This document shows positions 1,026 to 6,251 of a stretch of 6,251 nucleotides of DNA, piece by piece (position 1 is the first letter of the stretch; the number at the start of each line of letters is the position of its first letter). Where the stretch lies: positions 1 to 6,251 of the forward strand of contig JAGGXI010000094.1 in assembly GCA_021163155.1 (NCBI GenBank). Direction: 5' to 3'. Source of the stretch: Candidatus Aerophobota bacterium. GTDB lineage: Bacteria > Aerophobota > Aerophobia > Aerophobales > JAGGXI01. The notes beneath the pieces are model-generated. The model saw only the letters and a program-made list of their open reading frames with translations. It searched no databases and was not told where the DNA came from. The translations under genes and the position numbers were made by a program.

Positions 1026-1050
1026 AAAGATTTTTGTAAAAAAAATCTTT
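1026..1050 (+). repeat. A/T-rich inverted repeat abutting the -35 box (copy 1)
   Basis: AAAGATTTTT and AAAAATCTTT are inverted arms around a GTAAA centre; the right arm ends inside the TTGACA box at 1049. A repeat of the same design but different arm ends occupies 3513-3541 in front of the second copy of this promoter. It may be a binding site or a curved upstream element, or the remains of a terminator hairpin. Confidence 0.55.
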
Positions 1051-1076
1051 GACAAAAATAAATTATTTTCTATAAT
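1049..1076 (+). promoter_or_regulatory. sigma-70-type promoter of the oxidoreductase gene
   Basis: TTGACA at 1049-1054 and TATAAT at 1071-1076 are both perfect consensus boxes with a 16-base spacer. Transcription would start near 1083, giving a leader of about 65 bases before the ATG at 1150. The same arrangement with the same spacer occurs at 3541-3568. Confidence 0.82.
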
Positions 1077-1095
1077 ATAATTATAATAGAAATTA

Positions 1096-1112
1096 ATTCC
1101 ATAATACGGAAT
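1096..1112. promoter_or_regulatory. possible operator or leader hairpin, copy 1
   Basis: ATTCC (1096-1100) and GGAAT (1108-1112) are inverted around a 7-base ATAATAC centre; outside a single mismatch the arms continue with TT/AA pairs. It begins about 13 bases after the predicted transcription start, a usual place for a repressor site. The same element is at 3583-3599 with one change in the centre. The regulator is not in the window. Confidence 0.5.
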
Positions 1113-1138
1113 AAATAGATTGAATGAACAATATCAAA

Positions 1139-1149: not shown

Positions 1150-3231
1150 ATGGAAAAAAAATACACAACATGTCGCTTATGTTCAGTATGTTGTCCCGTC
1201 GTGGTTTCTTTAGAAAATAATAAAATAGTCTCGGTAGAAAGAAAAACAAGTACTCCCTCAATGGAAGAAAATTATTTTTGTCCAAAGGTAAAGGCGGTTC
1301 CTGAAATTGTTTATTCGGCTGACAGATTAAAGACCCCATTAATAAAGAAGAATATCAATGGTAAAGCTGTTTGGAATAAAGCATCATGGGAACAAGCGAT
1401 GGATATTATTGCAAATAAGTTAAATCTTTTTAAACAGAAGTACGGGGCTGAATCCGTAGCCTGGCTAAGAGGTCAAGCGCCGGATTGGGGAGCTACATGG
1501 CACTATGCCATAAGATTGATGAACGCCTTTGGTTCTCCTAACGTTATTGGGGACGGTTCTGTTTGTTATTGGGCACGAGAAATGGCCCATGTCTTTACAT
1601 ATGGAGCAATGACATCTTCTGATTATAAAAATTCCAAATGTATAGTTATCTGGGGGGGAAACGAGAGGGATACCAATCCCTCTGCATACAATAGGATTCT
1701 TTATGCTAAAGAGCAAGGCGCTAAACTGATTGTTATAGACCCAATAAGAACTAAGTTAGCATCTTTGGCTGATATTTGGCTACAAATAAAACCAGGTTGT
1801 GATGGTTTGTTAGCGATGTTAATGATTTATGTAATAATTTCAGAAAATCTTTACGATGCAGACTTTATAAGAGAATGGACAGTTGGATTTAATGAGTTAA
1901 AAGAAGCTGTAAAGAAATATGTGCCTGAAAAAATAGCAGAGAAAATTTGGCTGGATGCAGAGAAAATAAGGGAAGCTGCCCGATTGTATGCAAAGACAAA
2001 ACCTGCCTGCCTTAGCGAAGGCAATGGAGTGGAGATGCATTTAAACACCTCTCAAAATATGAGGTCAATTTTCATTTTAAGAGCATTAACAGGGAATATA
2101 GATAAAAAAGGGGGAGACCGTATACCACAACCGATACCAATGAGAGATATCCGGCTTAACGAGAGACTTCGAGGTGATATTAAGTCTGTAGGCTTTGAAT
2201 ATCCCCTTCTTAATAACTTTCCTAAATGTCCAGGGGGAATCCAGACTCTTCTACCATTAGTCAACTCAATTCTTGATGAAAAGCCTTATCCTATAAAAGC
2301 ACTTATTATACAGGGAGCTAATCCAGCAGTAACTATGGCAAACTCGAAAAGAGTTCGACAAGCCTTAGAGAAACTTGAGTTTGTTGTTGCAGTTGATTTA
2401 TTTATGACCCAAACAGCAAAATTTGCGGATATCGTTCTTCCAGCAACAACTTCCTTTGAGAAGACACAACTAAACTTTAGTTCCATGATAGGAAATCGTG
2501 TTATGCTCCAAAATAAGGTGATCGACTGGTATGAAAATAGCTGGCCTGATTGGAAGATTATCTTTGAATTAGCCAAAAAGATGGGTTATAAAGATGAGTT
2601 TCCCTGGAACACTGTTGAAGAAGCAATTGATTATCAGTTGGAGCCTGCTGGCATTACTGTTGAAATGTTACGCAAGAATCAAAAAGGAATTACTTTTGGG
2701 GAGACAAGGCGCGAAAAATATAAAAATAATGGATTTGATACACGGTCCGGGAAAGTAGAGATTTATTCAGAAATCTTCAAAGAGCATGGTTATTCACCAA
2801 TTCCTGATTTTAAGGAGGATGAGGAAAATCATCTGAGTTTTTATGATAAAAGAGACAATTTTCCTTTAATTGGAATTAGCGGGGCAAGGACAATCAATTT
2901 TGTTCACTCTCAGTTTAGAAACATCCCTTACTTACTGAAACGTGAACCTGAGCCCTTTGTAGACATCCATCCAAAAGATGCAAAAACAAGAGATATCTCA
3001 GATGGGGATACCGTGGTAATCGAAACACCTAACGGTCGAATAAAGATGAAGGCGAAGATATCGGATATTGTTCATCCTGGATTGGTTCGCATTCCATGGG
3101 GATGGGGTGAATTTAATCCTGATTATAATATTAACAGCCTAACGGATGACGGGAAACGAGACCCTGTTACCAGTACTACCTCAAATAGATGCTTTATGTG
3201 TAACGTGGTCAAAGATGTCATAATGAACTAA
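1150..3231 (+). CDS. bis-molybdopterin (Mo/W) oxidoreductase, DMSO-reductase superfamily, acetylene-hydratase/thiosulfate-reductase-like
   Basis: This is a 693-residue protein from ATG 1150. Cys8, Cys11, Cys15 and Cys44 (C-x2-C-x3-C-x28-C) form the N-terminal [4Fe-4S] site. The Mo/W-bis-MGD domains follow, with WGGN near residue 166, KLIVIDPIRTK near 190 and ADIVLPATTSFEK near 425. A C-terminal cap domain of the molydop-binding type ends the protein (DGDTVVIETPNGRIK at about 620-635, then RIPWGWGE). Cys139 in DGSVCYWAREMA is the likely metal ligand. No twin-arginine signal is present, so the enzyme is cytoplasmic. From memory, the segment around 190-260 closely resembles acetylene hydratase (AKLIVIDPIRTK, ADIW, ENLYD, VGF-x-ELK). 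However, the residue after the second cluster Cys is Ser12, where acetylene hydratase has its catalytic Asp. Formate dehydrogenase is unlikely because the conserved His after the Cys/Sec ligand is Tyr here. The gene is single, with no iron-sulfur or membrane-anchor subunit beside it; the electron partner, if any, and the substrate are unknown. Its leader is shared with the methyltransferase operon. Confidence 0.9.
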   Translation: MEKKYTTCRLCSVCCPVVVSLENNKIVSVERKTSTPSMEENYFCPKVKAVPEIVYSADRLKTPLIKKNINGKAVWNKASWEQAMDIIANKLNLFKQKYGAESVAWLRGQAPDWGATWHYAIRLMNAFGSPNVIGDGSVCYWAREMAHVFTYGAMTSSDYKNSKCIVIWGGNERDTNPSAYNRILYAKEQGAKLIVIDPIRTKLASLADIWLQIKPGCDGLLAMLMIYVIISENLYDADFIREWTVGFNELKEAVKKYVPEKIAEKIWLDAEKIREAARLYAKTKPACLSEGNGVEMHLNTSQNMRSIFILRALTGNIDKKGGDRIPQPIPMRDIRLNERLRGDIKSVGFEYPLLNNFPKCPGGIQTLLPLVNSILDEKPYPIKALIIQGANPAVTMANSKRVRQALEKLEFVVAVDLFMTQTAKFADIVLPATTSFEKTQLNFSSMIGNRVMLQNKVIDWYENSWPDWKIIFELAKKMGYKDEFPWNTVEEAIDYQLEPAGITVEMLRKNQKGITFGETRREKYKNNGFDTRSGKVEIYSEIFKEHGYSPIPDFKEDEENHLSFYDKRDNFPLIGISGARTINFVHSQFRNIPYLLKREPEPFVDIHPKDAKTRDISDGDTVVIETPNGRIKMKAKISDIVHPGLVRIPWGWGEFNPDYNINSLTDDGKRDPVTSTTSNRCFMCNVVKDVIMN

Positions 3232-3330: not shown

Positions 3331-3358
3331 GTAGGGAACGACCGCGACCGTTCCCTAC
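3331..3358. repeat. 28-bp imperfect palindrome, copy 2 of the dispersed repeat
   Basis: The arms GTAGGGAACG and CGTTCCCTAC are the same as at 932-961, but the centre is ACCGCGAC instead of GTCGCGAC, so two positions no longer fit the perfect dyad. The following 23 bases match the flank of copy 1 with about four changes. It again sits upstream of the promoter/leader cassette. Confidence 0.83.
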
Positions 3359-3512: not shown

Positions 3513-3541
3513 ACCATTTTTTTTGTACAAAAAAAAATGGT
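3513..3541 (+). repeat. A/T-rich inverted repeat overlapping the -35 box (copy 2)
   Basis: ACCATTTTTTTT and AAAAAAAAATGGT are inverted arms around GTAC; the last base is the first T of the TTGACA box. Compared with 1026-1050 the outer arm bases differ, but they change on both sides so that pairing is kept. Confidence 0.6.
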
Positions 3542-3568
3542 TGACAAAAATAGATCATTTTATATAAT
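3541..3568 (+). promoter_or_regulatory. sigma-70-type promoter of the corrinoid/methyltransferase operon
   Basis: TTGACA at 3541-3546 and TATAAT at 3563-3568 are separated by 16 bases; transcription would start near 3575. The boxes and spacer are as in the promoter at 1049-1076. Confidence 0.82.
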
Positions 3569-3582
3569 TACAATAGAAATTA

Positions 3583-3599
3583 ATTCCATAATGCGGAAT
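3583..3599. promoter_or_regulatory. possible operator or leader hairpin, copy 2
   Basis: ATTCC (3583-3587) and GGAAT (3595-3599) are inverted around ATAATGC, about 8 bases after the predicted transcription start. It has one centre change from 1096-1112. Confidence 0.5.
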
Positions 3600-3609
3600 A
3601 AATAGGTAA

Positions 3610-3639: not shown

Positions 3640-4284
3640 GTGGACAAAAGAGGGAAATTGGTACAATATGTTAAAGATGGTGATACCAAAAATGCGCTAA
3701 CCTTAGTTAAGGAACTTGCAAGTGAAATAGACCTAAAAGAGATGATAGGTGATTTAACAAAAGGGATGAGGGAAGTGGGAGAGAGTTTTGAAAAATCCGA
3801 AATATTCCTTCCCGAAATGATGTTAGCTTCAGAGGCTCTTATAGAAGTGATGTCGGTCTTAAAACCACTATTTAAAGAAAAAGGCGAGGAAGAGGAGAAA
3901 ATAAAAGTAGTAATGGCAACAGTTAAAGGTGATGTCCATGAAATAGGCAAGAATATAGTTTCACTTGTTTTAAAAGCCAATGGTTATGAAATTGTTGATT
4001 TAGGGAGAAACGTTGACCCACTTAATATTATTAAAGGCGCTGAATCAAATAATGTTAAAGTAATTGGTCTTTCAGCACTTATGACAACAACTATGCCCGC
4101 TCAAGAAGAGCTGATCAAGATGCTAAAAGACAAAGGTGTGAGAGATAAATTTAAAGTGGTAGTGGGAGGAGCTCCTGTTTCTTCAAATTGGGCATCAGAA
4201 ATAGGAGCAGATGGATATGCAAAAGATGCATTCCAAGCGGTATGTTTAATAGATAGCATCTTAAAAGAAAATGGAGGTGAATAG
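3640..4284 (+). CDS. MtmC-like corrinoid (methyl-accepting) protein
   Basis: This is a 214-residue protein starting at GTG 3640, with AAGGAGG at 3625-3631, eight bases upstream. The length matches the 210-220 residues usual for methylamine and methanol corrinoid proteins. Residues 1-85 are the four-helix cap domain (B12-binding 2 type), with the typical EIFLPEMMLASEAL at 54-67. Residues 88-214 are the Rossmann B12 domain, with D98-V-H100-E-I-G103 (His100 is the lower axial cobalt ligand), S145-A-L147 and G176-G177. In this family the cobalt(I) corrinoid takes a methyl group from the substrate-specific methyltransferase and passes it to a second methyltransferase; the protein acts in the cytoplasm. 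The next gene begins one base after its TAG stop, so the two are made together as cognate partners. The partner is MtmB-type, which supports MtmC-like over MttC- or MtaC-like, but sequence alone does not separate these. Confidence 0.92.
   Translation: MDKRGKLVQYVKDGDTKNALTLVKELASEIDLKEMIGDLTKGMREVGESFEKSEIFLPEMMLASEALIEVMSVLKPLFKEKGEEEEKIKVVMATVKGDVHEIGKNIVSLVLKANGYEIVDLGRNVDPLNIIKGAESNNVKVIGLSALMTTTMPAQEELIKMLKDKGVRDKFKVVVGGAPVSSNWASEIGADGYAKDAFQAVCLIDSILKENGGE
4273..4280 (+). promoter_or_regulatory. ribosome-binding site inside the end of the corrinoid gene
   Basis: GGAGGTGA at 4273-4280 lies five bases before ATG 4286. It favours 4286 over an in-frame ATG at 4271, which lies upstream of it and inside the corrinoid gene. 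Confidence 0.85.
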
Positions 4285-4285
4285 T

Positions 4286-5665
4286 ATGGCACCTATAAGA
4301 ATGTGGGAAATATTAAAGAGAGCAGAAACAGGTCAGTTTATAGAGGAAAAAGACTTTCTTATGAAACACTTTATTCCAACTATGAGGAAAGTAATAAAAA
4401 AGTATGAGATTAAATATAACCCTCAAATCCCTGTAACCTCAGATGATGATTTAGCAGATAGGGTTTGGCAGGCAGCATTAGAATTTTTCCTTGAAGTAGG
4501 GATATATCATCAAGACACGCACAGAATAATAAAATTCTCTGAAGAAGAGATTAAAGAGGCACTATTTGCTACACCTCCAGAGTATATGGTTGGTGAGGGT
4601 GCTGATATTAGAAGGTTTGGTTCAAGAAAAATTGAAGATTCAATACCTCCATTTATGTTATTTAGTCCTGATATTACATACGATGAGCATGACCATCTCC
4701 GTGCATGCATAGCATTTTTAAAAGAACCATTATTAGATGGTTTATGTGCACCTATTCTTGATCAATTTATGGGTAGAAAAATTAAATCACCTACTCCTTC
4801 TGAGTTAGGTGGTGCTACAACACATGCAATGAACTTAAGGGAAGCGGCAAGGCTTGTAGGAAGGCCGGGAGTATGGTTTGTAGCCGTTGGAACAGCTGAA
4901 TCGGATATGGCTCAGATAGCTGTAAGCGATGATATGTGGGGAGTAAGGCATACTGATGGAAGATTGGTTGGTGCTATAACTGAATTTATGACCAATAGCT
5001 CAATGTTAAATAAAGCTACCCATTATCAAATGAACGGTAATATTGCTGGTTGTCTTCCAGGAGCCATTTATGGAGGATACGCAGGAGGTGCAGAAGGAAC
5101 TGCAGTTTTGGAGGTAGCATACCATTTAATGGGTTTAATGGTTTATTTTGCTCAATTCATTCAAAATTTCCCATTTCATTTAAGATATGGGTCTAATACA
5201 GGAAGGGAAATGTTATGGATAACGAGCATATATTCTCAAGCAGTCGCAAGAAACACACATCTTGTGCAAACATCAAATGGGTTTGCTAATGCAGGCCCAG
5301 GAACAGAAATGCTATTTTATGAGACTGCAGCTCATGCAATAGCCAGTACTGTCTGTGGAGCAAACTTATGGGAGATAGCTCCAGCCAGAAATAAGATACA
5401 TAATTATGGAACACCTCTTGAATGTAGATTTGCTGCGGAAGTTGGTCACAGTGTGACTAAGATGAATATGACAAGAGAAAAAGCAAATGAAATTGTTAAT
5501 AAGTTGCTCAACAAATATGAAGATAATATACCAACAGCTCCTGAAGGAAAACCATTCCAGCAGCTCTATGATATGAAGGAGCTTATACCTACACAAGAAT
5601 ATCTTAACCAATATTATAAAATTAAAGAAGACGTTGCAAAGATGGGAATTGACTTTATCTATTAA
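4286..5665 (+). CDS. MtmB-family corrinoid methyltransferase lacking pyrrolysine
   Basis: This is a 459-residue protein; archaeal monomethylamine methyltransferase MtmB has 458. Family signatures run the whole length: GIYHQDTHRIIKFSEEEI (72-89), GRPG (192-195), YGGYAGGAE (262-270), LRYGSNTGRE (299-308), NAGPGTEM (335-342), and a C-terminus with YE, APEGK, F-x-x-x-YD, PT-x-EY. In MtmB a TAG codon soon after GRPG encodes pyrrolysine 202. Here the same place is Val199 (GTA at 4880) or Ala200, and no TAG interrupts the frame, which ends in TAA. By alignment with M. barkeri MtmB from memory, three pocket residues also differ: Glu259 is Leu257, Gln333 is about Asn331 and Tyr335 is Phe333. The enzyme should be a TIM-barrel methyltransferase passing a methyl group to the corrinoid protein encoded one base upstream. 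Methylamine is not the expected substrate; a quaternary or otherwise activated methyl donor is a guess by analogy with the non-pyrrolysine MttB relatives such as MtgB. Confidence 0.9.
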   Translation: MAPIRMWEILKRAETGQFIEEKDFLMKHFIPTMRKVIKKYEIKYNPQIPVTSDDDLADRVWQAALEFFLEVGIYHQDTHRIIKFSEEEIKEALFATPPEYMVGEGADIRRFGSRKIEDSIPPFMLFSPDITYDEHDHLRACIAFLKEPLLDGLCAPILDQFMGRKIKSPTPSELGGATTHAMNLREAARLVGRPGVWFVAVGTAESDMAQIAVSDDMWGVRHTDGRLVGAITEFMTNSSMLNKATHYQMNGNIAGCLPGAIYGGYAGGAEGTAVLEVAYHLMGLMVYFAQFIQNFPFHLRYGSNTGREMLWITSIYSQAVARNTHLVQTSNGFANAGPGTEMLFYETAAHAIASTVCGANLWEIAPARNKIHNYGTPLECRFAAEVGHSVTKMNMTREKANEIVNKLLNKYEDNIPTAPEGKPFQQLYDMKELIPTQEYLNQYYKIKEDVAKMGIDFIY

Positions 5666-5947: not shown

Positions 5948-6251
5948 ATGAATAAAAAAGCATTACGGATTTTAAGTGTTGTCTTTGTAAGTATCTTTTC
6001 TTTTTTGTTACTTGGTATCTGCAGTGCAAATGCAGCAGAGAAAATATTAGTTTTTGGTCGAAAAAGCGCTTATCAAATAGATCCTGCAATAGCAGGTACA
6101 GATGAAGCCTTTTATACTCTATTTGCTGTATATGACCAACTTGTTACAAGAGATAACAACTTAAAGGTTAAACCTTTATTAGCAACTTCCTGGGAAGTGA
6201 GTAAAGATTACAAAACATATACTTTCCATTTGCGGAAAGGGGTAAAATTTC
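5948..6251 (+). CDS. ABC transporter solute-binding protein, peptide/nickel type (SBP_bac_5), 3' end outside window
   Basis: ATG 5948 follows AAGGAG (5935-5940) by seven bases. The window holds the first 101 residues; a full member has about 500-550. Residues 1-29 are a signal peptide: MNKK, then a hydrophobic core VVFVSIFSFLLLGI, then ANA before AEK, which fits signal peptidase I cleavage. The Cys in LLGIC has Ile at -1 and does not make a good lipobox. The mature start follows the DppA/OppA/NikA pattern: LVFGRKSAYQIDPAIAG, then VYDQLVTRD, PLLATSWEVSKD and YTFHLRKGVKF. Such proteins capture peptides or other small solutes outside the membrane for a permease pair and ATPases, usually encoded next. 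A hairpin separates it from the methyltransferase operon, so it probably has its own transcript. It may bring in the substrate of the neighbouring enzymes, but this rests only on position. Confidence 0.88.
   Translation, partial: MNKKALRILSVVFVSIFSFLLLGICSANAAEKILVFGRKSAYQIDPAIAGTDEAFYTLFAVYDQLVTRDNNLKVKPLLATSWEVSKDYKTYTFHLRKGVKF

Follow-up and report, generated by a model that had tools for sequence, protein, structure and literature searches.

The methyltransferase MtmB requires pyrrolysine (Pyl), since methylamine is a poor methyl donor. Pyl-free relatives of the enzyme have nevertheless been known for years, and in a recent study 1,061 MtmB sequences, with and without Pyl, were placed in one tree (Kashyap et al., 2026; PMC13044021). 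The same study presents MtqB, a Pyl-free MtmB homologue of Methanococcoides methylutens Q3c, which was expressed and found to methylate cob(I)alamin with tetramethylammonium (37 nmol/min/mg), choline (42) and, weakly, methylamine (11), and to be inactive with trimethylamine and glycine betaine. MtqB is supported there by expression, proteomic and in vitro data as the first Pyl-free MtmB to be proven enzymatically, its branch is reported to take in bacteria, and its clade has a Met/Cys/aromatic site. EmtA, the catalytic subunit of an estrogen methyltransferase in the estrogen-degrading Denitratisoma, was described in 2020; it is also related to MtmB and has no Pyl (PMC7448270). MtgB and other Pyl-free MttB enzymes are likewise Pyl-free kin of a Pyl enzyme and demethylate quaternary amines, but they form a separate family (PF06253) with no significant sequence similarity to MtmB.

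The window, which is the whole stretch of 6,251 nucleotides that was analysed, contains a gene pair with the order mtxC–mtxB:

3640–4284, plus strand: mtxC, cognate corrinoid protein of 214 aa with a GTG start and a TAG stop (PF02310, 7.3e-29; PF02607, 3.9e-15; GDVHEIG)
4286–5665, plus strand: mtxB, Pyl-free MtmB-family methyltransferase of 459 aa (PF05369; matches to 1nth and 1tv2; codons checked)

The mtxB open reading frame starts with ATG just 3' of GGAGGTG and ends with TAA. MtxB was matched by the Pfam MtmB profile PF05369 over positions 3–449 of 450 (E 3.8e-95, 319.8 bits against a curated cut-off of 25 bits). The closest solved structure was MtmB1 of Methanosarcina barkeri (1l2q/1nth, 1tv2; E 7.8e-58), on which residues 8–455 of MtxB aligned end to end with residues 11–456 at 27–28% identity, and the MtmB-family motifs, among them GGYAGG and AGPxTEM, were intact. 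Because the protein of M. barkeri reaches 770 bits with this HMM, compared to 320 for MtxB, the latter is a divergent member of the family. NCBIfam gave no match to MtxB, which is uninformative since M. barkeri MtmB itself has none. The first-pass annotation had proposed a full-length, Pyl-free MtmB-family protein paired with a corrinoid protein, and this part was upheld: the coordinates, the length, the named residues and the pairing with mtxC directly upstream were all correct, the best match was MtmB, and neither a TAG nor an intact Pyl pocket was seen. Its view that the family held no characterised equivalent, so that the protein could stand for a new substrate class, is outdated, as MtqB (PMC13044021) and EmtA (PMC7448270) are both Pyl-free.

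In the phmmer alignment, the TAG-encoded Pyl202 of MtmB1 (written as X, or as K in 1tv2) falls on Val199 of MtxB, encoded by the sense codon GTA, and the mtxB frame contains no TAG at all. Three further residues, Glu259, Gln333 and Tyr335, which we take from the M. barkeri MtmB structure to be Pyl contacts, are replaced by Leu257 (CTT), Asn331 (AAT) and Phe333 (TTT), respectively; the residue numbering was checked, and the changes are those named in the first-pass annotation. That annotation had gone on to propose a rebuilt pocket. All four residues do differ, but at this level of identity a chance difference at every one of four chosen positions has a probability of 0.72^4 = 0.27, or about one in four, and a rebuilt pocket is therefore consistent with the data rather than demonstrated by them. 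By strand order, Gly200 of MtmB, two residues before Pyl and hence on the face that carries Pyl, is replaced by Trp197 in MtxB, which could plausibly offer a quaternary nitrogen an aromatic wall. An AlphaFold model built from two sequences had a mean pLDDT of 37.5, too low for a comparison of pocket or fold.

Set side by side with MtqB as described, MtxB is likewise a Pyl-free PF05369 member with a cognate corrinoid protein. MtqB differs in belonging to a methanogen with coenzyme M as the methyl acceptor, and its gene context, as far as that text describes it, is apparently unlike that of mtxCB. EmtA, compared through its description, is also MtmB-related and Pyl-free and has a corrinoid partner, EmtB, whereas it methylates estrogens with S-adenosylmethionine as the ultimate donor. 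The emtC and emtD genes are not found beside mtxB, where a W/Mo enzyme gene lies upstream and a solute-binding protein gene lies downstream, followed by the end of the contig. Placed beside MtqB and EmtA by these descriptions, MtxB is a new divergent member of the described Pyl-free MtmB group, with an informative regulon.

The TAG stop of mtxC lies one base before the ATG of mtxB. MtxC carries the DxHxxG motif as GDVHEIG and scores about 184 bits in the NCBIfam MtbC/pyl_corrinoid comparison, which is under every subtype cut-off, with MtbC as the best NCBIfam match; its structural matches are MttC (7xcn) and MtmC (3ezx). The pair is flanked by two further genes:

1150–3231, plus strand: W/Mo-bis-pterin oxidoreductase-fold enzyme of 693 residues, 5' of mtxCB (PF00384, 3.3e-49; 2e7z, E 1.7e-90)
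5948–6251, plus strand: first part of a gene for the family-5 solute-binding protein of an ABC importer, 3' of mtxB and running off the contig end (PF00496, 1.1e-10)

The best solved relative of the upstream enzyme is acetylene hydratase (2e7z), whose [4Fe-4S] CxxC...C pattern it keeps. We did not name it acetylene hydratase because the catalytic Asp13 of that enzyme is Ser here (CRLCSVCC versus CQSCDINC). Over 96 aa, the downstream protein has 86% identity with a protein encoded downstream of mttC–mttB on contig C114. At 240–700 of the window (plus strand, frame 3), an M20-type peptidase-like remnant was recognised by eye (GGTESLSVPDTC..., ...GPSGENPHSADEY...). It has one in-frame TAG and its 5' end is missing; it is probably a pseudogene, and the TAG is notable in a PylS-bearing genome.

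Analysis of the intergenic regions revealed the same arrangement of elements in front of mtxCB and in front of the oxidoreductase gene:

1049–1076, plus strand: promoter of the oxidoreductase gene, TTGACA-16-TATAAT, 12 of 12 sigma-70 consensus positions
1091–1118, plus strand: predicted operator of the oxidoreductase gene, a sequence twin one base different from the mtxCB copy
3331–3358, no strand assigned: interspersed palindromic element GTAGGGAACG..CGTTCCCTAC, 5' of the mtxCB promoter, with a twin at 932–961
3541–3568, plus strand: mtxCB promoter, TTGACA-16-TATAAT, 12 of 12 sigma-70 consensus positions
3578–3605, plus strand: predicted mtxCB operator AATTAATTCCATAATGCGGAATAAATAG, an ATTCC..GGAAT palindrome with its twin at 1091–1118 and a third site on contig C93

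At both promoters, the near-identical 28-base element around ATTCCATAATRCGGAAT starts within 15 bases downstream. Only one further clear copy was found genome-wide, a perfect palindrome at C93:7344-7364, and a control search of the whole genome with the operator read backward returned 0 copies. The C93 copy has the same layout, following a TTGACA/TATAAT promoter, and precedes an operon for a Pyl-free MttB homologue, an indolepyruvate-type ferredoxin oxidoreductase (IorAB) and a two-part ADP-forming acyl-CoA ligase. The IorAB subunits are under their NCBIfam cut-offs, the alpha subunit only narrowly. Given that the search of C93 for corrinoid domains found none, MtxC may also serve the MttB encoded there. 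Judged by these sequence elements, mtxCB, the W/Mo enzyme gene and the C93 mttB operon are apparently co-regulated, which does not imply a common substrate. Farther upstream on C93 there is a proline-racemase-family gene. The palindromic element GGGAACGGTCGCGACCGTTCCC, which lies 5' of both window promoters, also occurs at C93:845.

The genome assembly (1.83 Mb, 119 contigs, 93% complete) contains two PF05369 genes, neither with internal stops. The second gene (P0002; G000:C39:1244-2614) encodes a Pyl-free paralogue of 456 aa that is 39% identical to MtxB and has its own corrinoid gene upstream; it keeps Glu at the 259 position and differs at the 333 and 335 positions. Ten MttB matches were found, some of them in genes broken at contig ends, together with six methyltransferase-type corrinoid proteins and UroD/MtaA-like methyltransferases; MtbB (PF09505) was not found in the genome. 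A metV–metF–methyl-tetrahydrofolate methyltransferase (MeTr) cluster is present on C69, with MeTr at 355.6 bits (cut-off, 259), and tetrahydrofolate is for this reason the likely methyl acceptor. On C48 (L020), the genes of a complete Opp/Dpp-type ABC importer lie behind mttB–mttC, and after them come an amidohydrolase-family gene and the start of a further mttB, an order that suggests a transport-linked demethylation cluster.

The idea of an organism without pyrrolysine was abandoned, as a bacterial-type C-terminal PylS protein of 277 aa is encoded at G000:C38:16841-17674 (L043), 0.3 kb from the contig end (351.6 bits against a cut-off of 178). Contamination was judged an unlikely source of this contig, since its tetranucleotide correlation to the other contigs is 0.986, compared to 0.82–0.89 for two foreign loci. 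The absence of Pyl from MtxB is thus not due to the want of PylS. No client gene of PylS was found in the genome, and none of the MttB genes covering the Pyl site has a TAG there. Relatives of MtxB were not found in viral contigs, plasmids or phages, and neither the phylum itself nor a sample from the same domain (386 genomes) held another genome with a PF05369 match above the cut-off; two weak PF05369 matches (L003, L004) fell under it and were left out.

On balance, we consider it probable that MtxB is functional without Pyl and demethylates a quaternary amine taken up by the cell, whose methyl group passes to MtxC and on to tetrahydrofolate under a shared, repressor-controlled operator. A choline-, betaine- or tetramethylammonium-like compound would be imported and bound in the cavity of the MtxB TIM barrel that Pyl fills in MtmB. 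By the precedent of MtqB, the emptied barrel would take the quaternary ammonium compound and hold one N-methyl group towards the cob(I)amide that MtxC carries, and direct displacement would yield methyl-Co(III)-MtxC. With its positive charge, the quaternary nitrogen would make the amine a good leaving group, so that MtxB would need no pyrrolysine. From MtxC, the methyl group would be moved to tetrahydrofolate by an AcsE-like methyltransferase and used through MetF/MetV, and a repressor acting at the common palindromic operator would co-induce mtxCB, the oxidoreductase gene and the Pyl-free mttB operon. For this proposal we counted the full-length PF05369 match with intact motifs and a sense codon at the Pyl site, the Pyl-contact residues changed to Leu, Asn and Phe, the adjoining DxHxxG corrinoid protein, and the C39 Pyl-free paralogue with a corrinoid protein of its own. 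The operator in common with the Pyl-free mttB operon, the metV–metF–MeTr cluster, the C114-like solute-binding protein downstream and the importer beside mttB–mttC on C48 point the same way, as does the demethylation of tetramethylammonium and choline by MtqB without Pyl (PMC13044021). Counted against it were the MtxC scores under all NCBIfam subtype cut-offs, the pocket model at pLDDT 37.5, the non-amine substrate and methylating direction of EmtA (PMC7448270), and the IorAB and acyl-CoA ligase genes of C93, which also fit the catabolism of aromatic or amino-acid-derived compounds.

The same methyl route to MtxC and folate could start from a non-amine donor such as a methoxylated aromatic, a methyl thioether, a sulfonium compound or a halide. 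The polar Pyl-contact residues have become less polar in MtxB, the operator also precedes genes for an IOR-type oxidoreductase, an ADP-forming acyl-CoA ligase and a W/Mo enzyme, which are not classical methylamine genes, and EmtA sets a precedent for aromatic rings in the MtmB family. We nonetheless regard such a donor as unlikely, for the known O- and haloalkane demethylases (CdmB, MtvB, OdmB, VdmB) sit in the UroD superfamily, the regulon partner methyltransferase is of the MttB family, and the sole in vitro-tested Pyl-free MtmB found, MtqB, uses quaternary amines. A reversed direction, in which methyl-MtxC gives its methyl group to an organic acceptor as in the EmtA system, appears very improbable. 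EmtA is a Pyl-free MtmB relative, but no sign of emtC or emtD was seen on the mtxB contig, which ends shortly 3' of mtxB, and the many MttB-type demethylation systems, the folate genes and the adjoining solute-binding protein point to methyl consumption.

Whether MtxB is MtqB proper, that is, the ortholog of the Methanococcoides tetramethylammonium/choline:corrinoid methyltransferase, can be weighed on the shared family, the missing Pyl, a corrinoid partner with MtbC as its best NCBIfam match and the bacteria within the MtqB branch (PMC13044021). We rate this identity as improbable: the W/Mo enzyme, the family-5 importer and the IorAB regulon are not described for mtqBC in the text available. 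A Pyl-independent monomethylamine methyltransferase, or a Pyl-MtmB copy undergoing decay, would fit the family membership and the weak activity of MtqB on methylamine (PMC13044021), and the PylS gene makes a Pyl ancestor conceivable. The intact frame, family motifs, ribosome-binding site and perfect promoter, together with an identity of 27–28% which is not that of a recently mutated Pyl-MtmB, leave this explanation only a slight chance.

With the quaternary-amine demethylase as the preferred reading, we also put forward, tentatively and as somewhat less probable than its opposite, that MtxB may represent a third Pyl-free MtmB class, neither MtqB nor EmtA, with a substrate new to the family. 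It would demethylate this substrate within a regulon whose other members are the acetylene-hydratase-like W/Mo enzyme of the window and, from C93, the Pyl-free MttB, the 2-oxoacid:ferredoxin oxidoreductase and the acyl-CoA ligase; the anaerobic catabolism of an aromatic amino-acid betaine is one example of a pathway that such a set could serve.

Pyl-free MtmB proteins bear on how far the fold works without its unusual catalytic residue and on why pyrrolysine evolved. The organism allows a direct comparison, as two Pyl-free MtmB paralogues and several Pyl-free MttB proteins are encoded alongside a PylS gene. The operator in common identifies the genes that would be co-induced with mtxCB, and it therefore provides a concrete route to the substrate of MtxB.
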